From assembly GCA_027382625.1 (NCBI GenBank), contig JAJKFJ010022651.1:62001-126000 (forward strand): a stretch of DNA of 64,000 nucleotides, given 5' to 3'. Source of the DNA: Tetmemena sp. SeJ-2015 (taxonomy: Eukaryota; Ciliophora; Spirotrichea; Sporadotrichida; Oxytrichidae). The notes beneath the pieces were generated by a model that was not told the origin of the DNA, did no database searches, and saw nothing but the letters and a program-made list of their open reading frames with translations. This document shows, piece after piece, positions 1 through 58,976 of this stretch (positions are counted from its first letter, which is position 1; every line of letters starts with the position of its first letter). A program made the translations under genes and the position numbers.

Positions 1-1
1 A

Positions 2-4860: not shown

Positions 4861-4924
4861 GAAATATAAGTTTAAAGCAGATCATATCAAAATGACTTAA
4901 CCCAGAAACTTGGAGAGTTCCAAT

Positions 4925-30570: not shown

Positions 30571-31536
30571 TCAGTATTTTTATTTCTCTCAGTAATTATA
30601 TTACTAGATTATTCTATATTTGATAAGATATATATTTATTTATCTTGCGTACTTGTGTAATCGTACTAAATTATGCATCTACAAAATTTATAAATTAAAA
30701 TAAGATGAGATTATTACTTCATTAAATTGATTATTTTTCATAGCAATAATTATGTAGGCAGCAAATTTGACTTTAGCCCAGATTACTATCCTGGAGTTAA
30801 GCAGTATGTTTTTAATTAGCAATATATTTTTTTAATTAACAAAAATAGCGAAAACATATTGCTGCTTTCTTAACAATTGATAAAAAGGAAAATTCTTTAA
30901 GAACACATTCAATTCTATATTTCCAGTTTATTTTTTATTTAAGAAAAGATAAAAAAGCAAAATTCGTTCTCAATTTGCTTATTTAAGATCAATATTTAAT
31001 TTCCTTAATAAATAAATTAGGACTAAAGTGTAAGATATTTATTATTGGTAAATTTTATTAACTCAGAAGCAAGTTTAATATCAATTGATGCAAAAAAAGT
31101 TTTCAAATTACAAAAATTATATGTTATAAATGCAACAATGATTGTAGATAAAATTATTTATTATCATATTCTTTCAGAAATGAAATGGATATTTTTAAAT
31201 CAAAATTGAAGGAGGAAAGAAATCTATCAAATAAAGTTTAGAGCATTTCATCACATTCATTAAGTAATGCAAAAAAAATCTACCTACCAATTCATGAATG
31301 GCTGCAAACTATTAGAAGATAATTTAAAAGTTGAATTTAAATTTTGAATGACGATATGATTAGATGATTTCAAACTAGTTGAATACAATAATTGATAGCC
31401 AGGCATTACAAACTCTCAGATCTATAACTAATCTGCCAAGTTCATTTCATAATTATTAGCAATTATTTTATTAGGCAAGTTTGAAGATACGATACCAATA
31501 TTGTAATCACGACACAATAAGCAGAGTTAGTTAGCC
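30571..31536. other. Very AT-rich region, mostly non-coding
   Basis: Nearly 1 kb dominated by A/T runs with stops in every frame even under the ciliate code, except for a short coding-like patch at 30742-30815. It fits IES or intergenic DNA. No transposase, terminal repeats or tandem repeat were seen. Confidence 0.55.
30742..30815 (+). other. Isolated coding-like patch (possible orphan MDS)
   Basis: Within very AT-rich DNA, about 74 bp has balanced composition and reads SNNYVGSKFDFSPDYYPG then VKQYVFN. It stands out from both flanks and could be a displaced macronuclear-destined segment of a scrambled gene. The source gene is not identified in this window. Confidence 0.3.
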
Positions 31537-32342
31537 TCACTGGAGGAAAGCCATCTCCTCTGCTGAAGCCTTGCTCCAGTCGATTTCGTAAACTCTCACG
31601 TAGTCAATAACGTATTGTTGAGGGAACTGAGTTGAACCATCGGGATCGCCGGGCCAGTTGCCGCCAATAGCGAGGTTGAGAATCACGAAGAACTTCTGGC
31701 CGTGGTCGAAAACCCATTGATCTGGGCTGGTCTCACTCTTTTAGATGGTATGGTAGGTGTTGCCGTCCACATAGAACTCGATGTGATCTGGTTGCCAGTT
31801 TACTCCATAGGTGTGGAAGTCATTTGCGAAGCCCTGATCGAGATGGTAGCCAGAGGTGCGGTCGAAGCCTGGTGAGTGAAGAGAGGAGTAGATGTTTTGG
31901 GGTCTCTGCCCACCAACTCCATAATGTCGATCTCACCGCATGCTGGCCAGCCAACTTGGCCGATGTTCTCACCAAGAAGCCAGAAAGCAGGCCAGATGCC
32001 TTGTCCGAAAGGCAACTTTGCTCTCATCTCAAACTTTCCGTAGAGAATAGAGAACTGACCAGCTGAGTTTAGCTTGGCAGAGGTAAACTGGTTGCCACCA
32101 TAGTCTTCTCTCAAAGCTTGAATAGTAAGGAAGCCATTAGACACCCATGAGTTTTAACCGCGATCAGTGTAGTACTCTTTTTCGTTGTTACCCCAACCAT
32201 TTCCACCCTGGTCGAAGTGCCACTTGCTGCGATCGATTGAGCCGCCATCGAACTCATCATTCCATACTTGGACCCACTGCCATGCGGCAACTTGGGATAG
32301 AGTCACTGCTCCAAGGAGCAAGAGTGCTGCGAAGTTTCTCAT
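31537..32342 (-). CDS. GH16 family glucanase-like secreted enzyme, copy 1
   Basis: About 268 residues. Signal peptide MRNFAALLLLGAVTLSQVAA, then WNDEFDGGSIDRSKWHFD and GWGNNEKEYYTDRG typical of laminarinase-type GH16 enzymes (endo-beta-1,3 or 1,3-1,4 glucanases). The catalytic motif GEIDIMELVG (ExDxxE, about 31915-31945) keeps nucleophile and acid/base. The C-terminal half reads FANDFHTYGVNWQPDHIEFY, NLAIGGNWPGDPD and DYVRVYEIDWSKA, all conserved. A one-base frameshift sits at a C run (about 31903-31906), where one more C would restore RDPQNIYSSLHSPGF; most likely a sequencing error. No IES is needed otherwise. It heads a tandem array of three GH16 genes on this strand, probably used to digest algal or fungal glucans. 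TGA stop at 31537-31539. Confidence 0.88.
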
Positions 32343-32599
32343 TTGCTTAGTTTACTTAGATTGGTAGGGAATCTTTTTAATTATTATAGAGTGTTGGGAA
32401 GGATCTGAATTTATATCTGTATTAAATGTGTTTAAAATATTATAAGCTAATATCCTTTAATTTTTGTAATAGAGACTTAATGAGTTATAAAGAGTGCTTT
32501 TCAAAGGGAGCAATTTAGTTAAGAGTTATAGGGCCAAATTAAAATGCTGTATCACCCGTTTACGGGAGGTTTATAATCTGTGAGGAATGATCTCTACTT

Positions 32600-33493
32600 T
32601 CACTGAGAGAGGAAACTTTAGCCGTGAGAGTGACCTTTATCCACCTTGTAGACTCTGACATAGTCAATCTCGTACTTGGCTGGGAACTGAGTGGTTTGAT
32701 CTGGGAAGCCTGGCCATGAGCCGCCAACAGCTAGGTTGAGGATAATGAAGAATTCGTGATCGTCGAAGGGCCAGAAATCTTGGGTCTAGCTAGAGTTTAC
32801 TGACATGAAGATCTGACCATCAACAGTGAAGTCGAGCTTACTTGGGTGCCATTCAACTCCAAATACGTGGAAGTCAGAATGGAAACCCTAGTCCAAGTGG
32901 TAGGTCTTGTTAGCGTTAAAGCTTGGGGCTTAGAGTTTAGAGTATGTGTTCATTGGGTCTCTGCCGATGTATTCCATCACATCGATGTGTTAAAAATACA
33001 AGCAAATAGAATTAAGAATACGATGCTTCCAGTTTTGGGCCAGCCAACTTCTTATAAGTTGTTTCCAAGGAGCCAAAAGGCAGGCCACATGCCTTGTCCC
33101 TCTGGAAGTTTTGCTCTGGCCTCAATCTTTCCGTACTTGAGGGAAAACTTTCCTGCTGTGTTAAGTCTTGCAGAAGTATAGTGATTGCCATTATATTCCT
33201 CTTTCAAAGCCTGAATCACAAGCTTTCCATTTTCAAGATAAGAATTTTGGGGTCTATTGGTGTAGAACTCATTTATAAAAATGAAGAGGAATTATAGCAT
33301 AAACTTTTTACTCAAGTTCGTTGTTTCCCCATCCATCTCCGCCGATATCGTATTTCCATTTGCTTTAGTCGATTTAGCTTCCATCGAACTCATCGCTCCA
33401 CACCAGTTTCCAGTTGTACGATTACTACTGAGCTTAGATAGTAGCTACAGATAGGCTTAGCCCTAAAAGGCTTGAGATAGAGATAATTTTCAT
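32600..33493 (-). CDS. GH16-like secreted protein, copy 2, with altered catalytic Glu
   Basis: Starts MKIISISSLLGLSLSVATIQ (signal peptide), then WKLVWSDEFDGSQIDQSKW and GGDGWGNNELE. Two IESs with 5-bp pointers are needed to read through (33272-33314 and 32988-33025). After removal the protein is continuous: NGKLVIQALKEEYNGNHYTS, then GQGMWPAFWLLGNNLQEVGW, then the active-site region and DYVRVYKVDKGHSHGQSFL to TGA at 32600-32602. Joining at the second IES gives PKTGSIDVMEYIG, so the GH16 motif ExDxxE becomes SxDxxE: Ser replaces the Glu nucleophile. The remaining acid/base Glu is kept. This copy may be inactive or a binding protein, unless the germline junction is misread. Confidence 0.82.
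32988..33025 (-). other. IES in GH16 copy 2, pointer CATCG (minus strand)
   Basis: CGATG on the plus strand at 32983-32987 and 33021-33025. Excision restores IDVMEYIGRDPMNTYSKL. It lies directly inside the catalytic motif codons, so the nucleophile position depends on this junction. Confidence 0.75.
33272..33314 (-). other. IES in GH16 copy 2, pointer TGAGT (minus strand)
   Basis: ACTCA on the plus strand at 33267-33271 and 33310-33314. Excision joins NNELE to FYTNRPQNSYLENG in frame; unexcised, the frame meets TGA inside the AT-rich segment. Confidence 0.8.
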
Positions 33494-33772
33494 TAAATAC
33501 GTCAATTCTATATTATAGATATCGAAATTGTCTTATTCCAAAATACTTAACTAGAATACAAGGTAATCGACAATCATTGAGAAGTGATTTGAACTTAAAA
33601 TGAGATTGTTAAATACTAAACTTTTGAGGAGTAGAAGATTATTTCATAAATTTTATTAATCATTAGCATTTGATATTGAGTGATTAAATCTAGAATAATA
33701 TAGTGTTTCTGGCAAGTCTTGAAAAGATATGCCTCAATTCAAATTATGTGGCTTTAGGCTCTCAGTGGTAGT

Positions 33773-34675
33773 TCACTGAAGGAAGCTTTCTTCAATTTGA
33801 TCAACGTAGACATCAACTTTCTAAGTGTCAAAAGGAATCTACTCGACCTCAGCGATCTCAGCGTTTTGCTATAACTTGTAAACTCTGACATAGTCAACAG
33901 TGAAGTGATGAGGGAACTTGGATGCTGGAGAAGGAGCACCGGGCCAGTTTCCACCGATAGCAAGGTTTAGAATGATGAAGAAATCGTGGTCGCCGAAGGG
34001 CCAGTGGTTGGGGCTTTCACTCTTGTAAACAGTGTAGTAAACCTGGTCATCAAAGTAGAAAGATAGGTGGTCAGGGTGCCATTCAACTCCATAAGTGTGG
34101 AACTCGTGGCTGAAGCCTTCGTTTCTCTCGAAGGCATGAGTAGTGTCATAAGAGGTAGCATGTAGGGAAGCGTGAACCTTTGAGGCGTCGTTACCCACCC
34201 ATTCCATAATATCGATCTCACCACAACCGGGCCATCCAGCTTGGCCGAAGTTGTTTCCGAGAAGCCAGAAAGCAGGCCAGACTCCACTTCCTGCGGGAAG
34301 CTTGGCGCTCATTTCTACCTTTCCATATTGAACTGTGAACTTTCCAGCTGTGTTCATTCTAGCTGAGGTGTATTCATAAACTCATGAATGTCAATCAGCA
34401 ATTTAAGGAAAGGAAATTAAAGATTGAGAGCCGCCATAGTCTTCTCTGAGAGCCTGAATTATGAGCTTTCCATCTGAGACATAAGAGTTCTCGGGTCTAT
34501 CAGTATAGAACTCGAGCTCATTGTTACCCCAGCCGTTGTTGCCAGTGTCATAGTGCCACTTGCTTCTATCAATTGAGTTGCCATTGAACTCATCGCTCCA
34601 GACCAACTGCCAGTTGGAGGCAGAGGCAAGCTGAGCGGTTCCCAAAACAAGTAATGTTATAGCTGATTTCAACAT
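33773..34675 (-). CDS. GH16 family glucanase-like secreted enzyme, copy 3
   Basis: About 283 residues after removing one IES. Signal peptide MLKSAITLLVLGTAQLASAS, then WQLVWSDEFNGNSIDRSKW and YDTGNNGWGNNELEFYTD. After the IES (34375-34425) it reads YTSARMNTAGKFTVQYGKVE and keeps the intact active-site motif GEIDIMEWVG. The C-terminal core EFHTYGVEWHPDHLSFYFDD, NLAIGGNWPGAP and DYVRVYKL is followed by an acidic tail (QNAEIAEVEQIPFDTQ) that contains TAG-encoded Gln and is longer than in copies 1 and 2. TGA at 33773-33775. Expected activity is endo-beta-glucan hydrolysis in the secretory or phagosomal route. Confidence in the family is high, in the substrate low. Confidence 0.9.
34375..34425 (-). 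other. IES in GH16 copy 3, 3-bp pointer AAT (minus strand)
   Basis: ATT (plus) at 34372-34374 and 34423-34425. Removing the 51 bp joins DYGGSQ to YTSARMNTAGK in frame. The short pointer makes the exact cut uncertain by a base or two. Confidence 0.7.
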
Positions 34676-35486
34676 GTGCTTAGAAGAGTTTATGAGTTAA
34701 GATTTTAATTATTACAGAGTACCTCACCCCTTAAATAAGGGTTGAATACCACAGATGTTAATAATCTATTTTCTATAATAAATATCTTCTCGAGGGTTAT
34801 AAATAATATTCTTTTTGTATTTTGTTAATATCTTATCTCTAGTGAATCTATATTCTCTCCTAATATAATAGATAGATATGTGACTTTGAGAATCTTAAAT
34901 CTATGATAGATTGGGAGGGTTTGCTTGACTATAATATGATGATAGTTTCCTTTAATCTTGTATAATGATGATGGTTTTTTTTATATATCAATCAGCTTCT
35001 ACATTTATGAATGAAGATATATCTACTTCGTTTTTTCACCTATCATCATTAATCTATCTATGTTAATATTATTATTCTCTTCTTGTTTTAAGTTTCACTC
35101 TTAAAGTCAGCCAGACAACCAGATTTCATAGCTCTCTATCTATCCAGTGGAAAAGAATTGATGAAGAACTACCCTGCAGTTTGGGCTATTGCTCTAAATG
35201 CTTCTTCTTAATTCCAGATACACATTCTGCGCATTCTTATTCATTTAAGGACCTTCATCTCAAATAAACCCTAGCAGAAAAGATCGGACAACTTAGAGTA
35301 GTTTTGATAGATAGAAGATAGAAAGGGTTTAGTGAAGCAATGAGCAATAAAATTATAGTTTTGAGTAATTATTAAAGTAAATTAGCGAGATAGTTGTAGT
35401 GAGTGATTAATTGATGTATGATAGATAGAGGGATCCACCACTGATAATTAATAATAAATATTCTAATATCGAAAGTCTGCGAGCGA
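34676..35486. other. Intergenic region upstream of scrambled GH31 gene
   Basis: About 800 bp, AT-rich, between the start of GH16 copy 3 (-) and the start of the first GH31 gene (+). No frame supported; a divergent promoter region is inferred. No telomere-addition motif is visible. Confidence 0.5.
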
Positions 35487-37673
35487 ATGTCAGAACTAGA
35501 TAGAGAGAATCTAAAACAAGACGAGCGCGCGCGCTTGGTAAATGACTCCGAGCAGGTGCCTGCAACCGACGCAGCTGCTGCCAAAGCAAAGAAGAAGAAG
35601 ATATTCATCGGAGTGGGTATCTTGCTACTTATCGGAGTTATCCTCGCTATCGTGCTCCCACTTACACTCAAGGGCGGTGATGACAACGGCCTCAACCCAA
35701 TCGACTCACCAGAGTACAACCCCTACGCAGTCGACGGCACTTCCATCAAGGAGACCGTCTTCAACCAACTCTTCGTCATCAAGTCACCCTAGACCCCTGC
35801 TAAGGCCTTCATGGCCAAGGAGGCTCTTGGAGCCTATAAGAACACTGACTACAAACCAGTCAACCCCAAAGATATCCCAGTTGGACAGAATAACAACTAC
35901 CTCACTGAGGAGATCTAAGTTAACTTCACCATGGTCGATAACTACAATCTACGTCTCTACCTCAGCGACAACAAGGCAGATCCCAAGAACACTCACGAGG
36001 TGGCTGATAAGTTCTTCCAACGCCCAGTTTATTCATGGGAAGCTAGACTCTCGCAGATGAACTTCCAGATCACCAAGGAGAAATTCGAGTGGAGCATCGG
36101 CAACATCTACTCTATAATTTAGTAGGTGAGCTACTATGTCTTTGATAGCAGTTTGCTTTGAGTTGTTGATAGTTATAAGAATGAAATCCTGAGCACTAAG
36201 AACAGAAAGCTATTCATGAGTGATAAGTACTCAGAGATTGGATTCGTTCTTCCTTCAAAGCGTTGCTACGGTCTCGGACAGAGAAATGCTCAGTTCCAAC
36301 TCCAATACGGCTCTTACACCCTTCACTCTCGCTTCAGACCCGAGGGTCTTTAGACTGACTCAGGACTTGGTGACCAGGCAGGTAACCACATCCACCCATT
36401 CGTGATGTGCCAGACCAAGGATAAGGACTTCATGGGCATGTTCTTCGTCGGCTCTGCTCCTCAACAGTTTGAAGTCATTTACACTAGCAAGGACGACAGA
36501 ATGATTCTCAACTACATTACTCTTGGCGGCCCAATCGAGGTATACACAATTATGCGCGGTAAGGTAGAAGACATCATCACCAAGTATCACACCATGATTG
36601 GCTACTCCACAATGCCTCCCTTCTACGCTCTCGGTTTCTTCCAGGGCTCTAACGCTTACACCTCTCTTGACCAGGTCAAGTCAGTTGTGCAGCAGTTCAC
36701 CGACCAGGGAGTCGCTCTTGAAGGTATGATCCTCAACAACTACAATCAACAGACCCAGCAGACTTTCACTGTCAACAGTGACAAGTTCAAGGGATTCAGT
36801 GATTACTACACCACTTTCAAGAAGGGCAACTAACACATGATCCTCGGCACCAGCGTTCAATTAATCCATAAATCGTAGTGAGTGTTAAGAAATCTTGTAT
36901 TGATTGCAATTGCTGGCAACTATCCTGCCTTCACTGCTGCTTCTTCAGCACAGTGCTTGGTGAACAACCTTGACGGAAAGGCTTTGATTGGTGTACTCAA
37001 CAAGACTCAAGTCTACTATATCGATCCCCATGCTGACAAGGCAGCCGACTTTTATGCCACTCAGTACTCCACTTTCTACGACCTTGTTGGAGGATTCGAG
37101 GGCATCCAGCTCTAGGACTCCTTCATGGCCAACCAGATCAATGGAGAAGTCAGCCAAGCTACCCCTACTAAGGAAATTAAGGGCAGACGCCTTGACTTCG
37201 GAGAAGAAACTCTCGGAGGATTTGAGCCATATTAGATTAATGAGGACCAAACCAAGTTCAGCACCTATACTCTTCCTTTCTTGCCCTCAAAGGACCACAA
37301 CTTGGATGAGAACACCATCTCTCTCAACGCCACTCACGGTTCTCTCCTTACTCCTAATCTCTTCCTTCACAACTTGAACGCTCACGCTCACTTGCAGCTT
37401 CTCAGTTCAACTCTCAATGGACTCACCAAGATGAACGGCCAGAGACCTTTCATTACCACTGACGCTTCTTTCCCAGGCTCAGGCGCTCTTGGAGCTGGCC
37501 TCATCACTGACCTTCACAGAACTTGGGACAACCTAAGAGGTGTGATTTCTCAAGCTATGGGACTCTCCCTCTACGGAGTCGGTAACACCATGGTTGATTC
37601 TTGCGGTTCTCTTGGCAAAATGGACCAGGAACTTTGCGCAAGATGGATGCAACTCTCTGCTTTCATGCCAATG
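35487..37673 (+). CDS. Gene AC, first segments (MDS 1-2): N-terminal half of tandem GH31 protein
   Basis: Starts MSELDRENLKQDERARLVND, then a Lys patch and one membrane span (IFIGVGILLLIGVILAIVLP, about residues 39-58): a type II membrane anchor as in sucrase-isomaltase. The lumenal part shows GH31 hallmarks: KLFMSDKYSEIGFVLPSKRC (about 36208-36265), HPFVMCQTKDKDFMGMFFVG, PIEVYTIMRGKVEDII, MPPFYALGFFQGS (36612-36650), GQRPFITTDASFPGSGALGA and CARWMQLSAFMPM. An IES at 36149-36172 is resolved; another near 36860-36905 is not fully resolved (HMILGTSV joins AIAGNYPAF). The nucleophile motif WxDMNE is replaced by FEGIQLQDS (37096-37122), so this unit is probably not hydrolytic. Coding stops abruptly at the 13-bp pointer 37661-37673 and resumes at 39493. 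Composition is GC-richer than the neighbours. Confidence 0.88.
36149..36172 (+). other. 24-bp IES in gene AC, pointer TTGATAG
   Basis: TTGATAG at 36142-36148 and 36166-36172. Removal changes a frame ending in TGA into YYVFDSYKNEILSTKNRKLF, which aligns with gene B (FFFHDPETQERLLETKNRKL). Confidence 0.85.
37661..37673 (+). repeat. 13-bp pointer TTTCATGCCAATG, joins AC segments 2 and 3
   Basis: The same 13 bases recur at 39493-39505, with different flanks on both sides. Joining through the repeat gives CARWMQLSAFMPM followed by VRNFYNETYLDPVSG, the normal GH31 order, across 1.8 kb that contains part of gene B. Confidence 0.92.
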
Positions 37674-37809
37674 CTTTGATCAATAAGGATGCTAGTGTAT
37701 ATGCTATCGCATTAATGAAGAAAGGAATAATTGGATTCTTTCGGAGACAATTAATTAATTATAAAAGGAAGGATACAACTTTCATCAACTATCCTCTGCC
37801 TAAATAAAC

Positions 37810-39427
37810 ATGCTAGATAGAAATGACACGTCAGCAGAGGCTTTGGATAACTCAGCCTCTGGCAAACTCATAAATAGAGACCGTACCGGTCAATCTCCAA
37901 TAGAACAAAGAGATGAGAGTGGTGATTAGTTTAACAGCTAAGGTGAGCTAGTTAAAAGCAATGATGAGAGCATACTTTTTCTAAAAAATAAGCCTTCTAC
38001 TCTTCAAAATCCTTAGCAGAAATTCGATTCAATCCCATTACCAACGGATGGAAAGAGTAAGAAGCAAGGGCTAAAGAGGAAGCGAATTAAGTGGATAGTT
38101 ATCTTGGTACTTATCTTCATCGCAGTTGTGCTGGCAATTACTTTGCCAATCGTATTACTAAAGGGAGATAGTTCTCTGCCTGTCGATCCATTCTCCTACA
38201 AAGAGTTCAACTTTATAAAGCTGAAGCAATCTGCTCCAATCACTGCGACTGTTTATATTTAATAACTTTGATGATGATTATTATTTAGGAATATTGGTAT
38301 ATGTTTACAATATCGACTTGACTCTTGAGTAAGCACCCTAATCAGAGTATTCCACAATCGATTGCAGGGACCTGACAGAAGATGACATGGAAGAGTTAGG
38401 CATCGACAGTTGCAAGCTTACTAAATTCTACCAGCGCTTTATGGAGGCAGATCAATCAACAAGCACCATTTAATCGTTACTCGCTCTACCACACAGGCTT
38501 GCTCAGCATTTTTATCAGACTCCAATTAACGCAAACCTTTCAAAACATTAGCTAAAATTAGATTCAAGAGAAAGTAATATTGTGAAGAAAGCTGGAAGTC
38601 TCTTCTCTATTGAGGAGCATCTATACTTTTAAAGACTGAAGGCTGACAAAAAGTAAAAAAGCTTAAGAATTAAAGCAATGGAGGGGAAAGTGGGCGAGAA
38701 TGTAGGGTATAAGGGAGTAAATTATAGACCAGTCAATCCTAGGGATGTCAGCGTCGGAGTTGTCAACAACAAAGAAACTCAAGCAATGTAGTTTCAGCTG
38801 GGACTTATCGACAACAAACAGGCTAGGATTTTCATTTCAGATAAACTTAGAAAAATATAATGAAGAAAATGAGGCATTTCTCAAATATAAAAGTTTACCA
38901 ACCCTGAGTAGAATTACACAGTGAGTGATTCTATACTTAAAAGACCTCCTTTGGCTTTTGAAGCTCGACTAAGCCAAGTTGGTTTCAACTATTCAAGTGA
39001 TACAGGAGTTTTTAAATTTATTTTGGTTTGAATTATTATACAACTTTAAATTTTTAGGTTTACTTTTTCTTTCACGATCCTGAAACTCAAGAGAGGCTTT
39101 TGGAAACTAAGAATAGGAAGCTCTTCATGTCAGAAAAGTTCAGCGAAATTGGTTTTGTTCTGCCAACTTAGCGAATATTTGGAATAGGTTAAAGGCATGG
39201 GAGCTTTCAACTTTAGCAAGGAACCTATACGCTTTGGTCAAAAGGAAGAGACTATACCAAAGAATACATGCCAGAAGGATAATGGCTTGGGTGGGCTAAA
39301 CGGACCAGGTGTGCATCCATTCGTTATGGTGCAGACTAAGAGCAAAGATTTCATGGGACTGTTCTTCTTAGCAACAACACCTCAAGTGTTTGAGATTATT
39401 CATTTCGATGGCTATGACGAGGCAGTT
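37810..39427 (+). CDS. Gene B, first segment: second GH31-like membrane protein, N-terminal part
   Basis: Starts MLDRNDTSAEALDNSASGKL; a basic stretch (KKQGLKRKRIKW) leads into one membrane span (IVILVLIFIAVVLAITLPIV, about 38095-38155), again a type II anchor. The lumenal part parallels gene AC: GVNYRPVNPRDVSVG, FEARLSQVGFNYSSDTG, KNRKLFMSEKFSEIGFVLPT, HPFVMVQTKSKDFMGLFFLA. IESs at 38256-38307 and 39030-39061 are resolved; a break near 38855-38915 is not. One extra A near 39297 shifts the frame before NGPGVHPF. Coding ends at the 15-bp pointer 39413-39427 and resumes at 40020, on the other side of AC segment 3. The whole piece lies between AC segments 2 and 3. Confidence 0.85.
38256..38307 (+). 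other. IES in gene B, pointer TGTTTA
   Basis: TGTTTA at 38250-38255 and 38302-38307. Excision joins PITATVY to NIDLTLEQAPQSEYST and removes an in-frame TGA. Confidence 0.82.
39030..39061 (+). other. IES in gene B, pointer GGTTT
   Basis: GGTTT at 39025-39029 and 39057-39061. Excision gives GVFKFILVYFFFHDPETQER and removes an in-frame TGA. It ends in TTTTTAG like an intron, but lacks a usable 5' GT in the right phase. Confidence 0.72.
39413..39427 (+). repeat. 15-bp pointer TATGACGAGGCAGTT, joins the two segments of gene B
   Basis: Second copy at 40020-40034, flanks different. Joining gives HFDGYDEAV then LNYIQLGGALEIYVMMRG, which matches MILNYITLGGPIEVYTIMRG of gene AC. The skipped 592 bp contain AC segment 3. 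Confidence 0.92.
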
Positions 39428-39492
39428 TCCATATTGAATTTCAAGGGTTTGAATACAGTGATATCCTATCTAAGTTGCGTATTAGATTATCA
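39428..39492 (+). other. IES between gene B segment 1 and AC segment 3
   Basis: 65 bp of AT-rich DNA that belongs to neither gene, bounded by the 15-bp B pointer on the left and the 13-bp AC pointer on the right. Confidence 0.8.
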
Positions 39493-39969
39493 TTTCATGC
39501 CAATGGTTAGAAACTTCTACAATGAGACCTACTTGGACCCAGTTAGTGGAACCCGTAACACCACTGACCCCTCAGAGCTTTCAGCTTTCACTAATTTCGA
39601 TTTCTCCTTCGCCTACAACTCTGCCATCTCCAACCGTCTCCCCTACCTCCGCTACATCTACTCCCAGCTCTACTACGCCTACAGATACGGAGCCGCAGTT
39701 GTGAGACCTCTCTTCTACGACTACCCTGAGGACGATAACGCCTTCGACCAATCTAACTACAAGGCCTTTGATACTTACATGCTTGGAGACTCCATCAAGG
39801 TCTCTCCAGTGCTCGACAAAGGCGTCAAGAATGGCGACACCTATCAGTCCTATTTCCCCGCTGGAAAATGGTACGACCTCAACAACTACACCACCGTCAT
39901 CGATACCACCAAGGGTGGAAAATTAGTTGACTTGACTTCTGATTACGCTTTCACTAGCATTCACTTGAA
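39493..39969 (+). CDS. Gene AC, segment 3 (MDS 3), inside gene B
   Basis: 477 bp that continue gene AC: VRNFYNETYLDPVSG, then SNRLPYLRYIYSQLYYAYRY, then VVRPLFYDYPEDD, YKAFDTYMLGDSIKVSPVLD and YFPAGKWYDLNNYTTVID. This is the end of the GH31 barrel and the start of the beta-sandwich. It is GC-richer than its flanks. The left edge is the 13-bp pointer and the right edge the 11-bp pointer ATTCACTTGAA (39959-39969), which reappears in reverse complement at 45461-45471. It breaks gene B in two, so the two loci are physically interleaved. Confidence 0.9.
39770..39785 (+). repeat. 16-bp repeat GATACTTACATGCTTG shared with the 3' end of gene B
   Basis: Also at 41866-41881, where recognisable gene B coding stops. 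It encodes DTYML in both. Either a pointer that would let gene B reuse the rest of AC segment 3, or simple paralogue conservation. Confidence 0.5.
39959..39969 (+). repeat. 11-bp inverted pointer ATTCACTTGAA, joins AC segment 3 to the inverted block
   Basis: The reverse complement is at 45461-45471. Joining across an inversion yields DYAFTSIHLKAGKIIPIQKN, the expected GH31 'IHxRxGxIxPxQ' sequence. Confidence 0.9.
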
Positions 39970-40019
39970 TCGAAATCAATAATGAGGGAAAGAAGATTGT
40001 GATGTGTTATTTATTTAAT
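39970..40019 (+). other. IES between AC segment 3 and gene B segment 2
   Basis: 50 bp of AT-rich DNA bounded by the two pointers; not needed by either gene. Confidence 0.8.
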
Positions 40020-41881
40020 TATGACGAGGCAGTTCTAAATTACATCTAGCTTGGTGGAGCGCTTGAAATCTATGTGATGATGAGAGGCTCAGCTTAAGAG
40101 ATAATATAGAGATACCATTCATTCATAGGCTTCCCGGCCATGCCTCCTTACTACGCGCTTGGTTTCTTCCAAGGATCTGAGGCTTATAAAGCTTCCCCAT
40201 ATTTTGCTATATATATATTTAGAGTTAATCCATTATAAACTGCAGTTTACGATGGACTAATGGCTAGGGATGGAAGCACCAAACTACGCTAAATATGACT
40301 TCCCTCTTGAAGGAGTGGAAGTAGAGCAGTATTGTGATCAGAAGGATAGGCTTTTCACTGTTAGTTACGATTCATTTAGGAACTTACCCAACATGACAAG
40401 AGACCTGCACACCAATAATCAGAAGATACAGCTTGGTCTTTACAGCTATGTGGCTCAGTCACAATACGGATCCTATGACATTTTAGACAAAGCAAAAGAG
40501 CTAGATTTATTCGTCAAGAGTGGCAATGACGCAACCAAAGGCTAGGATCTTTACAATACACCTTTGAGGTACAAGGAGGGAGGATATGTGTTTGATGTGT
40601 TCCACCCAAATATAGCCGCCTTCTTCCGCTATGGTATTTTGGCTCTTGACTAAGCTATGGAGTTGAGAGGCATCGATGGTTTCATACTCAGGTATAATCA
40701 AATCTACAGTGATGTTTCTGGAGAAGTCTAGAAGCCTTAATCAGCTAAGGATACTTCGCAAAATGAACCTGCTGCTTTTGATACTATGAATAGTTCCTCT
40801 TTAGTGAATAGACAAGTTAATTATAAGTAGTAAGTCTCAGAAGCGGCATCGTTCCTTCCTCTCTCTAATCCTGATATCACCTTCATTGAAAAAAGTCAGG
40901 ATGTAGCTGCATCTGTGAGTCGTTAATTGTCCTCAGTATCGAATGAAGAGTCTGTAGGATTCGTTGAAAGTTACTTGCTACCGAATTCTTCCTCTTAGAA
41001 CACTAGCTAATCAACATACTACCTTCCGTTCTTACCTGGCTACGTAAACTGGGGATTCCTAGACAATCACTCGATTTCCTTGAATGCTACTCACTATTCA
41101 AACGGAGACTCCTCTATCAAGGCAAGCAAGTTCAATTCTCAGTTTTACCTTCACAATAAATTAAAAACTCTTGTGATTGTAAGAGAGTTAAAGCATTATG
41201 TAGTGAATGTATTTGGGCACATGGAGATGAAAGTGCTTTACGACGCTTTACTAACAGCTGACGGATATACCGGACAACAAAACAGACCTTTGATATACTC
41301 TGAGTCTACTTTTGCTGGCTCAGGAGCATTTGGAGGAACTTGGCTTGGAGATATTCCTTTCTTATGGCAATATTAACTCATCTAAGATAATATTAAGATA
41401 GTTATAATTGAAGCAAAGTTTGAGGCTTGTAGTTTCACAGCTATTCAACATGAACATTTTTGGAATTCCAAACACCTTTACCGACGTTTGTGGAGACGCG
41501 GGAACTCATCATGGTGAACAAGAAGATCTGTGTCTAAGGTGGGTACAGCTTGGGGCTTTCACTCCCTTTGTCAGAGACTATTTCAACTCACTATACTTCA
41601 ATTACACTCAAAACAAAACTCTAGACTCTGGTAGTTCAGAACTCTACTATCTGAGTGATACTTACAGAGATGCAACCAAGTCAGTTCTATATCAGCGACT
41701 AGAGTACACAAGGTACTTGTATAGTCAGCTATATTACAGCTACAGATACGGTGGTAGTGTTATGAAGCCTCTCTTCTTTGACTATCCAGGCGATGATAAA
41801 CTCTTAACTCTTGTAAAATTACACTAAGAATAGCTATAAGGTTTAGTTGCTTTAGTGGCATCGAGGATACTTACATGCTTG
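40020..41881 (+). CDS. Gene B, second segment: GH31-like barrel without nucleophile
   Basis: Continues B after the 15-bp pointer: LNYIQLGGALEIYVMMRGSA, MPPYYALGFFQGSEAY, then YDFPLEGVEVEQYCDQKDRL, GGYVFDVFHPNIAAFFRYGI, and LRGIDGFILRYNQIYSD (40660-40712) where active GH31 enzymes have FDGxWxDMNE: the nucleophile Asp and the flanking Trp are absent. PLIYSESTFAGSGAFGGTWL plus GD, GIPNTFTDVCGDAG, LCLRWVQLGAFTPFVRDYFN and YSQLYYSYRYGGSVMKPLFF follow. There is a resolved IES at 41372-41408, and breaks near 40190-40265 and 41806-41852 that are not resolved. It ends at GIEDTYML (41857-41880) with no C-terminal beta domain and no TGA in context, so the rest of B must come from elsewhere. Confidence 0.83.
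41372..41408 (+). other. IES in gene B, pointer AAT
   Basis: AAT at 41369-41371 and 41406-41408. Joining gives IPFLWQLKQSLRLVVSQLFN in frame; unexcised, the frame meets a TGA inside the segment. Confidence 0.65.
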
Positions 41882-41929
41882 AAAAATTCGAATCGAAATA
41901 GTCCGTAAGACTGATAATTTTTATTATTT
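41882..41929. other. IES/spacer between gene B end and inverted AC block
   Basis: 48 bp AT-rich spacer with no coding, between the last recognisable B codon on the plus strand and the last codon of the inverted AC block on the minus strand. Confidence 0.65.
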
Positions 41930-41940
41930 TTGGAAGCCCA
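41930..41940 (-). repeat. 11-bp inverted pointer TGGGCTTCCAA, joins the inverted block to the last AC segment
   Basis: Minus-strand TGGGCTTCCAA here recurs on the plus strand at 45533-45543. The join reads INVLWASKSGLSSIKSVTL, in frame, and leads to the only suitable TGA. Confidence 0.88.
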
Positions 41941-44900
41941 GAGGACGTTGATGTTGCCGATGGAGTGGTCTGCGGGGACGACAGCTGGCATCTTCATGCC
42001 TCCGGAAGGAATGACAGTGAAAGTCATGGTCTTCTTATCATCAGTTTGAGTAAGTGCGATATCGAATCTCTTATAGTTTGATGCATCATCAGCAATAACT
42101 GACACTCCATCATCGAAGTAGATGTGACCTTGGGCAAGAGGTTAGGTGTTGGGGGTGGTGGTTGGGTCAGTTGGGAGTGCGTAGAAGTCAGTTGCGAAGG
42201 TAGTCAAGTCGAGGGTCTTGCGTACCTTTTGGGCAGTTGCATCCTGATGAGGTACGATGTAACCGTTTCTCAAGTGAATGTAAATTTCGAGCTACAATAT
42301 TCTATATGCACATCAATCATCAAGGTTTAGTAGCTCTCAAGAAGAGTGAGGAAAGTCTGGTATCCATTAGCACCGCCTGGAGAGTCGAAGCAGTCCTCAG
42401 CAAGGTTCTAGATCTCGGGGTAGATTCTGCACCATCTGTCTTGAGGGAAGTAGTATTGTCTGCTCTTGGTGAAATCAAGAGAGGTAGTCTCCATGGAGAG
42501 CTTGAGAGCGCTTCCGAGAAGAATGTTTACTTGCAAGTCCTTGTAGGCGTAGGTGTCAAGAGGGTACTCGTACATAAGAGGCTTGAAGAATGAACCTCCT
42601 TGAAGTGCGAATTCGAAGAAGGAAGAGTAGTAGTACTTCACAAAGCGGTAACGATTGACAAGGGCCATTTGAATGACGTCAACGTAACGAGTGGTAGTAG
42701 TAGCATTAATCTTGTCGATGAATCTGTATGGCTCTTGAGGCTTGGTGGCATTTTGGTTATGGTTTCTGGCAAAAGGATACAGAGATCCGAGAATATAATC
42801 ATAGATCATGAATCGTACTTCAAGCTTTTGAATGTGCCATCTGGTACAGATTTCATTGGTAGCGTCTCCGTTGAAACCGCAAATATCTGAGCCCATGAAA
42901 GGAAGAGCGAACAAGTTGTAGGAGAAGATACCGTCGACTGAGAGAGCCATGTATTCAACTGTTGACCAGTTGTCTCCCATCCAGTGGTGACCATACTTTC
43001 CGATACCTGGGAAATCAGAGCTTTAAATCGTATCTTTATAGATTTAGATCATTTGATACAGAAATCTTCATAAGTAAATGATTTATAATAATAAGCGGGT
43101 GAGGATGTAGGGTCTGAGGTTTCTCTTGCTGATGAGGTACTCGGCAGTTGCCTTGGTTTGCATAAGAGGGAAGAGGTTGTGCACATCGTACTCTCTTCTG
43201 TTGATGGAATCGTGCCAGCCGTCCACTCCGATGGCCTTATCCTCGAGATCTCTCCATCCTGGGACGTAGAAGGGCTTGTTTCTGTAAGAGTCAACAGGTC
43301 TTTCCTCTGGCTTGCAGTAGCCATTGCAGAAGTTAGTGGCTTCGTTTTCGTCTAGCCACACTCCGTCGAAGTTCAACTTTTGGTTAGTGAACAAGTCATC
43401 AAAGTTTAAATTATCAGTAAATGCGAGTGAAGCTATTGTTCCGATTAATAAGTTAGCAACCCACCATTCGACAGCAGAAGGCTTGAAGAAATCGGGGAAG
43501 TCAATATCTAATCAAACTCATGCAAACATTACAATGCTGAATTGATTATATTGAAGTAGGCGTTTCCGCACCACACTCCAGCGGTCAGATAGTTCTTGTG
43601 GTCGTCTTGCTTAATGAAGACATCCTTTGCGATACCGTCATCGAGAGCCTTGTAGCCCTGGTTTAGTCTGACTGCAACTCCAGCGTCCATAATGGGTACG
43701 AAGTGGCGTCCATCCTTGTGGACTTGGTCGACGTACTCTGGTAGCTTAGAGTAAGAAGAAGGAGCAATGGTGAATAGCTTGTAGTCATCTAGATAGTCAA
43801 TATCAGCCCACATGGTGTCGAGAGGAAGATCGAAGTCCTTGCTGATGTAGGTGTTGTACACGTTGACCCAATCCTGGTCAGTGACCCAGCCGAAACGGCA
43901 CTGCTGCCATCCGAAAGCCCAGAGAGGAGGAAGGGTGGGGAAACCAACCAACTTAAAAGATGGTTGAAATTCAACTTAGAGTAAGTCTTGATGAGGTCAT
44001 CAGGCTTGAGGCCGGTGAAGAAGTACTTGGAGATGCGACCACCGATGTTGATCTTGTGAATCTGAGTTTGCTTAGGTCCAGTTGTGACTTAGCCGTTGTC
44101 AGAGAATACGATGTAGTCAGTAGGGTAAGAGCTGAGATCAAAAACTCCGAGCCAGTCCTTGGTCTTTCCATTAAAATATCATTCAAAGGATAATTCAATT
44201 TACTTAATATAACGCTATTGTTAGACTGGAAGGCATAGAGAGGTTGGTAACCGTACATGTTTCTGCCGGGAGGAAGTCCATCATCGATAGGGTTAGCCTT
44301 GATCGAAGGTCTTTCTGGAGTGGATGGCTCCGTTCTGGTTCTTGTAGAAGAGATCACCTGCTCTTTCTCCCATACCGATCAAAGGTTGGTCAAATCCCTT
44401 CGTCTTGGTTCATCACGAAGATGCCTGAGTCAAGTACGAAGAAGTCTGAAATGTAGAGTCTTGTGGGGTCACTCCACCACAGAAAACAGTTTAAGGCATT
44501 AAATAGAACAGAAGAGTGGTTGTGTCTGCAGTATCCTTGTAGATTTGGTAGTTGAAGACGGTCTTGTCATCTCCGTTGACCTTGAGGTACTTGGAGAGCT
44601 TGTTGGCGAGTTTGTCGGTGGGGAACAAATCGGCCATCTTGGGGTTGAAGACGGCATCAGCAGGAGGAGCGTAGAGCTTAGTGTACTTGCTGGTGAAGTC
44701 ATCCTGGGTAGTGATCTCAACGTTGAGAGTTCCCATATCGTCCATAAAATTAAAAAAAAGGTCTATAAATCATATATCCATCTGCTTAAAGACTGCAACG
44801 AGGTCTGGGAGGAGCTTGCCTCCAGCCTTTGCTGGTAACACTAATATAGAAATAATTGTGATCTTAGATGCCACTTTAGTTTAAGAGTGTAAGGTCCAGA

Positions 44901-45471
44901 GGTGGTCGTTGGTGACGTCGGAGGACTTGACAACGTATTGGAAGGTGGTGGAGTCGCAGAAGTTCTAGTCGACTTGGCTGTTTCCGAACTTGATGAAGCC
45001 GATGTCCTTGAAGTTGATGGTGGGGTTGGCTTCGGAGGGTTGAAGGGTAAGCACCTTTGAAATAGGGTTGTAGCTTGGCTTCTGGAGGCTCACTGGTTGG
45101 TTGAGGCCGAGGTAGCAGGCGAAGTCGGAATCCTTGAGGTCTTCAGCGTCGAGGATCTGGATCTGGCCGAGCTGGTGGATCTGGTAGCCAGCGGGAGGGA
45201 CGTAGGTGAAGTCTCCCTCTTGGACCCAGAAGTTGATGCTCTTGGCTGCATAGCGGAGTTTCCAGTAGGTGAAGTCTTGGTGGTTGTCATCCTTGATGGC
45301 ATAGGAGTTGGCGGAGATGCCGTCGTCGACAAGTACGTAACCCTCAGCGTAGGAAGCTTCGTCTCTTGCAATGACGAAGGAGGTCTTGTACTGAGTCTGG
45401 AAGTCGTAGGTGGTCTTCTTGGACTGAGTGTTCTTTTGGATGGGGATGATCTTACCAGCCTTCAAGTGAAT
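41930..45471 (-). CDS. Gene AC, inverted block: end of GH31 unit 1 and the catalytic GH31 unit 2
   Basis: Read on the minus strand from 45471. First, the C-terminal beta domain of unit 1: IHLKAGKIIPIQKNTQSKKT, GYVLVDDGISANSYAIKDDN, FTYVPPAGYQIHQLGQIQIL, ending near FCDSTTFQYVVKSSDV. The same frame runs on, without TGA, to KLLPDLVAVFKQMD and through an IES into DMGTLNVEITTQDDFTSKYT, which begins unit 2. Unit 2 has a complete active site: DYKLFTIAPSSYSKLPEYVD, nucleophile motif FDGVWLDENEATNF (about 43335-43375), GHHWMGDNWSTVEYMALSVD with acid/base Asp, then PFMGSDICGF and CTRWHIQKLEVRF, and VYFDDGVSVIADD near the end. IESs at 44746-44781, 44485-44513 and 43955-43977 are well resolved, others (about 44180-44215, 43505-43545, 43390-43450, 43025-43085, 42285-42335) less exactly. 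Single-base indels occur at homopolymers near 44290 and 44395. The block ends at the 11-bp pointer 41930-41940. Confidence 0.87.
43955..43977 (-). other. 23-bp IES in gene AC, pointer AAGTTG (minus strand)
   Basis: CAACTT (plus) at 43949-43954 and 43972-43977. Excision gives TYSKLVGFPTLPPLWAFGWQ, the conserved GH31 entry to the barrel. Confidence 0.85.
44485..44513 (-). other. 29-bp IES in gene AC, pointer TTCTGT (minus strand)
   Basis: ACAGAA (plus) at 44479-44484 and 44508-44513. Excision gives DTTTLLWWSDPTRLYISDFF. Confidence 0.85.
44746..44781 (-). other. 36-bp IES in gene AC, pointer ATGGA (minus strand)
   Basis: TCCAT (plus) at 44741-44745 and 44777-44781. Excision joins PDLVAVFKQMD to DMGTLNVEITTQ and removes the TGA that would otherwise separate the two GH31 units. 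Confidence 0.82.
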
Positions 45472-45532
45472 TCTTAAATCTTCTCTCGATCTTAGCATAC
45501 ATAGTTTTGAGATAAAAAGATAACTTTATTTT

Positions 45533-45697
45533 TGGGCTTCCAAGTCAGGCCTCAGCAGCATCAAATCAGTCACTCTCACAAAGCTTGACAAGTCAACTGC
45601 CGTCATCACTCCCGCCACCTCTAAGGTCGAGACAGTGACTCTCCCCATCAATACCTCATTGTGGAACATCGACAACATCGCAATCGTTCTCAACTGA
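45533..45697 (+). CDS. Gene AC, last segment (C-terminal end and stop)
   Basis: Begins with the 11-bp pointer (45533-45543) and reads SGLSSIKSVTLTKLDKSTAV, ITPATSKVETVTLPINTS, LWNIDNIAIVLN and TGA at 45695-45697. It is a short beta-rich C-terminal end, in plus orientation although the preceding 3.5 kb of the gene is inverted. GC-rich codon use matches the rest of AC and differs from the AT-rich flank. Confidence 0.85.
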   Translation, partial: WASKSGLSSIKSVTLTKLDKSTAVITPATSKVETVTLPINTSLWNIDNIAIVLN

Positions 45698-46017: not shown

Positions 46018-48600
46018 TCATAACTTGTGTCTTCCCTTTTACTGGTCAATTAGGTATTAAAGTTGAGGCTCTAGCTTATAGTACAAGTCTAGGAAGGAAT
46101 TCACTTCCTAATGTTGCCTCTGGTCGAAGAATTTATTCTGCCTCACTTTGCGAGCTACTAAAATCTCCTCAACATAAGGTTCTGCGAAGTTTAGCAAAAA
46201 GTCAACTTTGAGACCCACATTATTTGGATCGAGTGGGTCTATCTCAAGGCCGTGGTTTACTAGCAGCCAAAATCCATAAAGAGAGTCTGATATAAATAAG
46301 AGTAATTCACGAAGAAAAGTAAATTAATATGTATATGATGCCTTTGGATCTTTCCTGACCAGTAGACTTCTGAGAGCTACAGCTCTTATCTCATACGCCC
46401 TGGACAGGTCATCTATTAGAATTATCAAATCCGAAGGAATGGGCTCGTCAAGACCTATGCAATCTGCTAGTGCTATCATCTGATGGTTTAATCTCTTTCT
46501 TTTCACTTCAAGTCTACTATAGTAAATAATACTGGACTCTAAAAACATAACTTCAGCATATTCAAGCAGCATCTCTCTGGTTACCTTCTCTCCTTTCTGA
46601 CACTTCTCTACAGCTCTTTGATACATCTAAGGAGCTTAGACGAGAGCATCTATGATTATAATGTATTCCTCGAAGATTAATTTCCCTAAAAGTTTGCTTT
46701 TCACATCTGCATCTAGGTACACCAACAGATTGAATGTGATCTCTTAGAGAAGAGCAAATCCTAAGGGTAGCACTAAGTCCTCAACTTTATCTTCATTCAC
46801 AGGTGTAGGGATGAACTCTCTTATCATTTTATGGGCTTTTTCTCGAGACTCTCCTGAATTTAATACTTTCAACATGCTCTCAATGAAATTCTAAGTACTA
46901 CCCTAATCAAATGTCAAGAGATTAGAGATTAGGAAGTTTGACAGAATAGTGAGGACCTTAATTCTGTACTATGTCAAAATCAAGTCTTTCGTTATGGTGA
47001 TATTCTTGGAAAAGCTAATAGATTTTAGGAGAGCTAAGAATGATCGCATCCAATTTAGGTCCTTATCCCAGCCGAACAAATAGTAGTTTAGCTTTCCTTC
47101 AAACTCTGAGAGCTTTGGATCGTTCTCTAAGCTGAGATGATAAGTACGTTTAGTAGATTTGCAATCAAAGAGAATAGTAAAAGTCAGGGTTCGGGGAGGA
47201 AATCTTCTTTGATCTCTACATAGAAAGTGCTGAGGTCTTTGATTTTTCTTTGCTCTTGATGAGTTTTGAAAAGCTCGTGTCCCTTTAAGTAGGTTTGAGC
47301 TGCTTTGTGTTGATCTTATTCCTCATTTTCATAAACTCGACAGTATCATTTATAAGATCATGTGGAACTCCAGCTGAAATAGCTACGTTTCTAGCATGAA
47401 GATTCATGTGGCCCCTTTAAATACCCTCAGTGCTTAGTGCACGAATAGCAGCTAAGTTTTGAGCAAGACCAACTGAAACCATGATTTAAGCGAGAGTCTA
47501 TGAAGTAGGATAGCCAAGGAATTAATGAGTGTTGATATATGAAGGATTGGTCTCAATGGCTCCTCCTTTTGTTCCTACGGATATAGGCATCTCGAGTCGA
47601 CCTTTAAACTAATCACCTTCTATTCTGTATCTAGTCAGTGGCATATACCTCCCTCCAAGAGATGCATAAGAGTGAGCAGCAGATTCGATAGCTCTCCAGT
47701 CTTAGCCAAGAGCGATTGCTACAGCATCTATTCCATTCATGATGCCCTTATTGTGAGTAGTTGCTCTGTATTGATCAAGCTCAGCAAATCTCTGAGCTTC
47801 AATTATTTTCAAGCAGATATCTTGTCCAGGTAAATTTTTCCAGCTCATGGCCTTTACTGGGATTGAAAACTCTGACATAGTAAGTCTCTCTGTGCATAGA
47901 TTAGTTAAAATTCTGACTGCTACTCTGCCTTGACCTATTACTTCCTGAATGTAAGGAGATGTATTCTCTGCAATAGTGTTTATGATGTTAGCACCCATGC
48001 TTTCCTGCACATTAACAAGAAGCTCTACTACTATCATCGCATTATCAAGTTGCCTCACTCTTATATCCTCAACTCCACCTCCTCTCTTTACCATGTTCTC
48101 ACAGTGCTTATTTGCATAATCGATTATCTACTTTCTGTTAATCTTGATCTTATACTGAGCATCTTAGAAGTCCTTGACTTCAGTGATTTGGATTTAAGCG
48201 ATCATAACTGGAGGAGTGCTCTAGCAGATAAATCTCAAATATTATGATAATATAAAAAATTGGAGGAATGTATAATCCTGAGCCCTTCTCTCCTATAAGT
48301 TTGGCAATCGCACTACATGCAGCTATCACGGAGGGCTCTTCTATAGCCATAGGGACCACGTAATTTGCTCCATTTACCTTGAAACCTAGGCCTAGTCCTA
48401 AAGGCAGAGGCAATATCAGTTATCATTATATTTATTTAACTAATTAAATTAATATGCCTATGCAGTTCTCAATCATATAGTCTGCAGTATCTGGCGAGAG
48501 ACCTCCCTACTTCAGAACATCAGTATCCAAGTCGGGATATATCTAAGTCAACTACAAATTAGGTTTAATAACAATGCTATCCTAAAGTAAGAAGGGAGGA
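46018..48600 (-). CDS. Class II HMG-CoA reductase with a long C-terminal extension
   Basis: Converts HMG-CoA and mevalonate. After removing two IESs it reads LKQGGLSPDTADYMIENCIG, ILPLPLGLGLGFKVNGANYV, VPMAIEEPSVIAACSAIAKL, GEKGSGFICQSTPPVMIAQI, later DQYRATTHNKGIMNGIDAVA, QDWRAIESAAHSYASLGGRY and IQRGHMNLHARNVA. MAIEEPSV and THNKGIMNG are signatures of the class II (bacterial-type) enzyme, not the class I membrane form. Downstream the frame continues for well over 300 residues beyond the normal end (KDLSTFYVEIKEDFLPEP, then an all-helical, Leu-rich region to HQEVNSFLDLYYKLEPQLQY and TGA at 46018-46020). That extension is unrecognised. Two one-base homopolymer deletions (near 47307 and 47195) are needed to connect it, so it could instead be a separate protein. 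The N-terminus, near 48600 or further upstream, is uncertain. Confidence 0.82.
48235..48277 (-). other. IES in HMG-CoA reductase, pointer GATT (minus strand)
   Basis: AATC (plus) at 48231-48234 and 48274-48277. Excision restores EKGSGFICQSTPPVMIAQIQ; otherwise the frame runs to a TGA. Confidence 0.8.
48417..48455 (-). other. IES in HMG-CoA reductase, pointer ATATT (minus strand)
   Basis: AATAT (plus) at 48412-48416 and 48451-48455. Excision restores IENCIGILPLPLGLGLGF. No GT-AG ends; the interior is almost pure A/T. Confidence 0.85.
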
Positions 48601-55255: not shown

Positions 55256-55714
55256 GGACATTTAAATGAGTAAGAGTTTTCTCTTTGCTGAATGAGCAGT
55301 TGCGTAACTACGCGTCACTGCTATTATCATATTCATTAAGGGTGGAGAGAAAAGATAGTTCACAGAAAGGGTAGCTGTGGACTGCAAACTAACTATTCTC
55401 ACTCTCTCTGGCTCTTTTCAGTTGTTGCTAATAATATCTTAAGTTGTTGTTTAATGTTTTCATCTAACCTTTTACTCTTTACACAATTTGATTATGATGA
55501 TGGTGGTGATAGTATACTACGATAAAGTTAATTTCATTATAGAGGGAGAATAAAGAAAATAGATATAGAAAGCCTAAAGCTTTGCAGAATTCAGTTAGCT
55601 CAAAACTTTAAAGGCCGCATAGAAGTTAACTGCTATTGAAGAGAGTGAGCATAACTTTATAATTGGTAGTTAGTGAAAAGAATGATTCAAATCTTGTGTT
55701 TTGTTGAGAATTGG
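55256..55714. other. Intergenic region between convergent genes
   Basis: About 460 bp AT-rich sequence, no supported frame on either strand and no obvious repeats. Confidence 0.5.
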
Positions 55715-58880: not shown

Positions 58881-58976
58881 AATGAGCAAATACACATATA
58901 TTGAAAATGGTTTTCTAATGATTGGTTATTGAGGTAGATTCGTTCAACTTTCCCTTCTTTTAGAGGTTAGAATTCT

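Follow-up and report, generated by a model that had tools for sequence, protein, structure and literature searches.

Two apparently interleaved, paralogous GH31 genes in ciliate germline DNA, and a 3' half that they may share

Blocks and pointers of the two genes

The DNA considered here is a stretch of 64,000 bases (the window), corresponding to positions 62001-126000 of contig C3287 (153,734 bases) in an assembly of 146,216,379 bases and 5213 contigs. Between 35 and 46 kb of the window lie what appear to be two paralogous genes of the glycosidase family GH31, called here AC and B, cut into segments that alternate with one another. This region is broken up under the usual genetic code, and translation table 6 (TAA and TAG read as Gln) yields longer frames. 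Since these frames come together with interruptions flanked by pointers, the sequence fits ciliate germline (micronuclear) DNA of a stichotrich-like organism.

Gene AC would be built from four blocks, A1, A2, an inverted C and T (Table 1), recombined at pointers of 13, 11 and 11 bp, with excision of 14 short internal eliminated sequences (IESs). When the blocks are joined and the 14 IESs removed by hand, a single frame of 5742 nt is obtained whose only TGA is the terminal one, and its predicted product is a double GH31 protein of 1913 aa, putatively membrane-anchored; in the alternative frames of the two AC parts there are 13 to 42 TGAs, counted on an earlier version of the model that was longer by 17 residues. 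In gene B two blocks would be joined at a 15-bp pointer. Hand removal of eight short interruptions with pointers of 3 to 8 bp leaves 1044 codons free of TGA (the other two frames contain 22 and 39), and from 40084 to 41517 a frame of 477 codons is open without any removal.

The two genes appear to occupy each other's gaps, with B1 inside the gap of AC (37674-39492) and A2 inside the gap of B (39428-40019). At least one segment of each gene would thus lie in a gap of the other, which is how interleaved loci are defined in Oxytricha trifallax (PMC5940158). Order and orientation are scrambled as well: A1 and A2 are on the plus strand with B1 between them, C is on the minus strand and T again on the plus strand. 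Consecutive segment ends carry frame-restoring pointers of 13, 11 and 11 bp in AC and of 15 bp in B, as in scrambled genes.

An earlier note on this DNA had recognized ciliate germline sequence, two paralogous GH31 genes, their interleaving and pointer-like repeats at their joins, and our analysis supports it on all four. It had AC break at 37673 and resume at 39493, and B break at 39427 and resume at 40020; both repeats proved to be exact at these positions, neither extends further into its differing flanks, and A2 (39493-39969) and B1 (37810-39427) are placed as it had said. The frame is preserved across both joins, and the restoration of GH31 sequence that it had described was recovered as an alignment to the proteins P0001 and P0002 continuous through both, weak on the right of A1/A2. 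The B1/B2 15-mer has exactly two copies in the whole assembly, both at this locus. Concerning the layout of AC, the breakpoints and first two blocks stand, but the note described neither the inversion of the third part nor the plus-strand end piece after it; and B stands as two blocks joined at 15 bp, but as a gene it is incomplete, because it stops inside the GH31 fold.

To provide a null for these repeats, random pairs of 41-base windows were taken from 35-46 kb (60,000 drawn, close pairs skipped, 59,398 kept). A word of at least 11 bases was shared by 29 of the 59,398 pairs and one of at least 13 bases by five; the longest was 14, so that none reached 15. Taken by themselves, the interleaving and the inversion are highly probable, the joins being read from germline DNA, and they are about as secure as can be achieved from such DNA alone.

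The boundaries of the short IESs were picked by hand for frame and homology and several have alternatives, so that their pointers, taken singly, are not evidence. In B, seven of the eight interruptions are AT-rich (0.72-0.84), the exception being 39277-39301 (0.48). The interruption at 39026-39057 has both pointers and intron-type ends, and it could be either an IES or an intron. Single-base frameshifts in C were considered as errors or signs of a decayed gene and are explained by the IESs of 16 and 19 bp together with one boundary near 44.82-44.90 kb. We also observed that A2 is longer than B, P0002 and the protein P0003 by about four residues at 39740-39768, just before DTYML; two GCCTT repeats spaced 24 bp apart enclose this place, where another in-frame IES is possible.

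Table 1. Blocks, pointers and short interruptions proposed for AC and B (window positions)
Feature	Position	Strand	Remarks
A1 (AC block 1)	35487-37673	+	Carries the start codon and most of the N-terminal GH31 module, with a putative transmembrane anchor (by eye); table-6 open reading frame after removal of two short IESs; PF01055
A2 (AC block 2)	39493-39969	+	In-frame continuation of A1; inside the gap of B
C (AC block 3)	41930-45471	-	Inverted; end of first module, linker, second GH31 module with WLDENE; one frame after 12 IES removals; PF01055
T (AC block 4)	45533-45697	+	C-terminal end, TGA stop at 45697; in-frame continuation of C
B1 (B block 1)	37810-39427	+	Own ATG, hydrophobic stretch that by eye is a putative transmembrane anchor, GH31 module (N-terminal part); open reading frame after removal of short IESs
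B2 (B block 2)	40020-41881	+	GH31 barrel; terminates in GATACTTACATGCTTG
Pointer A1/A2, 13 bp	37661-37673 and 39493-39505	+	TTTCATGCCAATG; exact, maximal repeat
Pointer B1/B2, 15 bp	39413-39427 and 40020-40034	+	TATGACGAGGCAGTT; exact, maximal repeat
Pointer A2/C, 11 bp	39959-39969; inverted copy 45461-45471	+ (first copy)	ATTCACTTGAA; no further copy in window
Pointer C/T, 11 bp	41930-41940; inverted copy 45533-45543	+ (first copy)	TTGGAAGCCCA; no further copy in window
Proposed pointer from B2 to A2, 16-mer	41866-41881 (B2 end) and 39770-39785 (A2)	+	GATACTTACATGCTTG; two copies in assembly
Proposed shared part of A2	39770-39969	+	In AC, and proposed continuation of B; 16-mer at start, in frame
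B2 flank, possible trace of a lost A2-end copy	41882-41929	+	GAATCGAAAT at 41890-41899 = 39967-39976
IES in A1	36142-36165	+	Pointer TTGATAG
IES in A1	36856-36903	+	Pointer TT; boundary uncertain
IES in C	44815-44901	-	Pointer CTC; boundary moved in the light of C113
IES in C	44746-44781	-	Pointer ATGGA
IES in C	44485-44513	-	Pointer TTCTG
IES in C, 16 bp	44381-44396	-	Pointer GAT
IES in C, 19 bp	44288-44306	-	Pointer TCGAT
IES in C	44173-44219	-	Pointer AAT
IES in C	43956-43978	-	Pointer TAAGTTG
IES in C	43508-43551	-	Pointer ATAT; C113 diverges from window inside
IES in C	43407-43454	-	Pointer AACTT
IES in C	43022-43096	-	Pointer GCT
IES in C	42795-42833	-	Pointer ATT
IES in C	42292-42350	-	Pointer CTC; several alternatives
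IES in B1	38251-38302	+	Pointer GTTTA
IES in B1	38853-38882	+	Pointer AAATATAA
Interruption in B1, 32 bp	39026-39057	+	GGTTT at both ends plus GT...AG ends
IES in B1	39277-39301	+	Pointer GGA; boundary uncertain, not AT-rich
IES in B2	40184-40232	+	Pointer TTATAAA
IES in B2	41155-41205	+	Pointer AAT
IES in B2	41367-41412	+	Pointer GCAA
IES in B2	41803-41849	+	Pointer CTT; alternative pointer GATA

Protein modules and selection on the proposed shared segment

The GH31 domain PF01055 is found in A (143.9 bits), B (159.5 bits, E-value 1.7e-46) and C (290.9 bits), in all three above the curated cut-off of 23.5, and the best PDB match of C is maltase-glucoamylase (9kz6). C keeps the nucleophile Asp of the WxDxNE motif as WLDENE and has WMGDN where maltase-glucoamylase has WLGDN; we take these to be the nucleophile and acid/base motifs of GH31. 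At the aligned place the N-terminal modules lack the nucleophile Asp, with Gln in A and Arg in B (37090-37130 and 40665-40705). Since the nucleophile is lost in both N-terminal modules and kept in the module that AC and B would share, each product would have its own, probably non-catalytic N-terminal module attached to a common active one. No trefoil (P-type) domain PF00088 was found in A, B or C at E 0.001.

A and B are clearly paralogous. Their proteins are identical at 306 of 770 aligned residues, as is usual for the alternative parts in alternative processing of macronuclear-destined sequences (MDSs); DNA identity is 48.6%, or 50, 63 and 32% at the three codon positions. Third-position G+C differs between A (0.60), B (0.41) and the part proposed to be shared (0.64). 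Compared with P0002, B is identical at 192/551 positions and A at 185/598, that is, B has not diverged further than A.

The joins were checked in alignments with P0001, P0002 and P0003, and wherever these proteins reach, the long joins sit in aligned sequence; P0002 stops short of C/T and P0003 of B1/B2, and P0003 hardly reaches A1/A2. The A1/A2 join, aligned with P0001 and P0002, is strong on its left (14/40 identical) and weak on its right (5/33 and 5/28). Against P0002 the identities to the left and right are 13/40 and 12/40 for A2/C and 11/39 and 14/40 for B1/B2, and against the C-terminus of P0003 they are 8/40 and 12/40 for C/T. P0002 (1599 aa, from a contig of 5461 bases and ending before the C-terminus) shares the two-module layout of AC, including a similar linker, and P0003 (1188 aa) has the layout of AC from the end of the first module onward. 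Protein searches for a relative with somatic sequence returned no close ciliate relative: the best matches were P0002 and P0003 (34%), one mollusc protein (25%) and, for B, P0012 (28%), and the Euplotes crassus alpha-glucosidase P0026 matches B at 31% over 22% of the query.

Contig C113 (locus L026) carries a second copy of part of C; it matches 43533-45233 of the window at 97.7% (1.7 kb), ends at 45233 and departs from the window at 43532, inside an IES. Of the 12 IESs of C, 8 lie within the range it covers, and all the long joins lie outside it. Over 1425 MDS bases of C there are 15 substitutions, all synonymous, one in-frame insertion of 3 bases and no frame-breaking indel; over 276 IES bases there are 13 substitutions, six deleted bases and two inserted ones. 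If changes were neutral, the chance that all 15 would be synonymous is about 1e-10 (expectation 0.217 each). This part of C is under purifying selection. An IES boundary at 44830-44865 was discarded because with it two 1-base deletions and an insertion of C113 fell into presumed coding sequence; its replacement (44815-44901) was chosen with those indels known, and the count of 15 synonymous and no nonsynonymous substitutions is unchanged by the revision.

C113 is probably the second haplotype of the locus. This is the simplest explanation because other contigs match other parts of the window at similar levels, namely 33000-34944 (97%), 55610-59000 (95%), 57350-57521 (99%) and 57574-59000 (94%), in comparisons that scored 16 of 17 candidates, the window's own contig not being listed, and then 3 of 4. 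Beyond its departure from the window C113 continues for at least 9.2 kb in other DNA (1-9231), in which two oppositely oriented open reading frames (1430-1882 minus, 3019-3471 plus) have the same translation; these suggest a large inverted repeat or a mobile element.

The 3' half of gene B

The homology of B to A stops at 41881 and no 3' half of its own is found at this locus. It is exactly there that B2 carries GATACTTACATGCTTG, whose only other copy in the assembly lies in the middle of A2. Both copies stand at the paralogous codons for DTYMLG, and a join between them is in frame. This sequence is the longest exact run in the codon alignment of A and B (15 bases, 16 with the next one; the next run has 12), it being noted that the alignment was ended there by choice; and among 25 overlapping windows of five identical A/B residues only DTYML is identical at 15/15 bases, the others at no more than 13. 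When B is joined at the 16-mer, an open reading frame of 2159 aa with one terminal stop is obtained, whose last 1120 residues are common with AC, and the join aligns with P0002 on both sides (17/40 identical on the left, 13/40 on the right).

The most economical reading, which we regard as probable though by no means firm, is that of two somatic genes with paralogous 5' halves that share the 3' segments of AC. After the B1/B2 join, B would continue from 39770, entering A2 through the 16-mer, and the outcome would be alternative 5' halves (793 residues in AC, 1039 in B) on one shared 3' half of about 1120 residues with intact catalytic motifs. The second half of A2 is single-copy in the assembly, and that B uses it, as the 16-mer suggests, has somewhat better than an even chance in our estimate. 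We infer that B itself once possessed a copy of the shared segment, which was then lost. A trace of that copy may persist in the flank of B2, which looks like the possible product of a deletion of about 170-180 bp of A2-like sequence; the alignment score between this flank and the end of A2 was equalled in 19 of 2000 shuffles and in 11 of 2975 random stretches. The fuller picture, in which either dead N-terminal module (A or B) is attached to one catalytic half, the junction of B lies inside an intact segment of A and the flank is the scar of a lost copy, we put forward tentatively, at somewhat less than even odds.

Several points weigh against the sharing of the 3' half. The assembly has the second half of A2 only once, in germline order, and the proposed pointer of B lies inside an AC segment and not at a segment boundary, which is unusual. 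DTYML is conserved, so part of the 16-bp identity could stem from paralogy. Since the IES boundaries were chosen for frame and homology, the lack of TGA is in part a consequence of that choice, and the trace in the flank was tested only after it had been noticed. Moreover, when the last short IES is left in place the frame of B continues to a TGA at 41912-41914, and a truncated B product is therefore possible.

The same interleaved map would hold if B were completed by a 3' half of its own, located elsewhere or missing from the assembly, which we consider improbable. The fragmentation of the assembly, with an apparent second haplotype only in parts, would allow for it, as would the end of C113 at 45233. 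No third copy of the 16-mer exists in the assembly, however, and when the genome was searched with the A2-to-C protein, all 33 of 33 candidates being scored, there were 22 matches, of which 4 are in the window, 3 on C113, its sole close relative and haplotype-like, and 15 elsewhere at 26-39% identity. C113 is not our first choice as a private 3' half of B, as it matches only 43533-45233 and at the level that other contigs show elsewhere. Among the 15 distant matches, 13 have their own sequence upstream of the end point of B, and the remaining two start at points further downstream on C3835, where other GH31 pieces lie too. Their words were compared with the end of B on the plus strand for all 15 (the gene strand for four) and on the gene strand for the other 11. 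In the comparison of those 11 the longest shared word has 8 bases, and the 15 loci were rejected as the continuation of B; an 11-base AT-rich word in L022 is on the wrong strand and was taken as chance. A pointer shorter than the 16-mer would still be compatible with B having its own half, since on the gene strand other GH31 loci have words in common with it that reach 8 bases. As a separate observation, C3835 carries several minus-strand GH31 pieces over 8 kb (33356-41638; L010, L017, L021, L022), possibly another scrambled or widely interrupted GH31 gene.

It is also unlikely, in our judgement, that B is a truncated or decaying duplicate, or a mere IES of AC as envisaged by the duplication-and-decay model described in PMC9797194, with AC alone being the gene. 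Such a B would be expected to miss the end of the GH31 fold, as it does, and to have a 3' flank resembling a deletion of A2-like sequence. Against this, B keeps its long TGA-free frame, with a stretch of 477 codons open without any removal, a coding-type pattern across codon positions and its strong PF01055 match; its similarity to P0002 is not lower than that of A, and it has a 15-bp join of its own. A chimeric assembly, or collinear genes with long introns in place of germline scrambling, is very improbable: C113 and C357 do depart from the window, but neither artefact nor introns would leave exact frame-restoring repeats of 11-15 bp at every long join, two of them inverted, and inversions are impossible to splice. 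C113 confirms the contiguity of 43533-45233 and not the joins themselves.

Surroundings, known systems and significance

The window contains other, unrelated genes, with domains of GH16, HMG-CoA reductase, DHHC and BTB type (of 10 scanned frames, 5 matched above the curated cut-off), and a scan of it with Rfam gave nothing at gathering scores. Directly upstream of the GH31 locus, at 31500-34750 on the minus strand, there are apparently three tandem GH16-like (beta-glucanase) genes; PF00722 was found in both stretches tested, and similar sequence is present on C357, C1671, C4091 and C1899. A gene at 47168-48325 (minus strand) has an HMG-CoA reductase family domain (PF00368, 241.8 bits) and by eye resembles the bacterial class II type. 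The region 13800-16500 is strongly purine-rich (AT skew above 0.2 at 14-16 kb), and its long table-6 frames encode a charged protein.

In Oxytricha trifallax, where segments join at pointers under RNA guidance, Braun et al. (2018, PMC5940158) counted, among 15,811 somatic contigs, 387 that are interleaved only and 47 that are interleaved and embedded; interleaved loci are mostly scrambled, and nested ones are called 'Russian doll' loci. As in those, each gene here would have segments in the gaps of the other. One tandem-duplication pair of paralogous scrambled loci is described in the available text of that paper, which does not discuss the interleaving of two paralogs. Alternative MDS processing in the same species (Chen et al. 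2015, PMC4684698) concerns 69 loci, of which 31 share 3' regions and 6 more both ends, and 38 are scrambled; the alternative parts are similar at protein level in 54 of the 69. A gene B using the 3' half of AC would be such a case, its sharing being deduced here from sequence. It would differ in having its junction inside a segment of the other gene and, perhaps, a weak trace of a lost copy, whereas Chen et al. report no traces of lost copies of shared segments. Because interleaving and segment-sharing paralogous genes are thus both published for O. trifallax, the locus is not a new kind of arrangement. In the open-access literature, most subscription papers being outside the scope, we found no published case that joins paralog interleaving with segment sharing.

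In the model of scrambling by duplication and decay (Gao et al. 2015, as described in Feng et al. 2022, PMC9797194), local paralogy stands beside scrambling as it does here, and the loss of one copy forces the use of the other. Here, in contrast with what that paper describes, both copies are coding over about 800-1040 residues, giving two genes and not one odd-even gene. At the protein level AC resembles sucrase-isomaltase and maltase-glucoamylase in having two GH31 modules per chain and a hydrophobic N-terminal stretch; unlike those enzymes, it showed no P-type trefoil in our search, and the nucleophile of the N-terminal module is replaced in both AC and B.

If the sharing of the 3' half is true, this locus would be a compact case of how scrambled loci and genes with shared segments arise: a local duplicate would have lost its 3' part and survived on that of its neighbour, and both would have become locked in each other's gaps. 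It would capture the step of duplication, loss and borrowing, traces of which were not found by Chen et al. (2015), and the possible trace of the lost copy is a feature worth following. The locus would also pose a question of specificity, namely how guide RNAs sort the segments of adjacent paralogs, and offer a natural comparison of shared and private pointers. The outcome suggested is a modular one, with two degenerate N-terminal modules that would be set alternatively on one active sugar-cleaving module.

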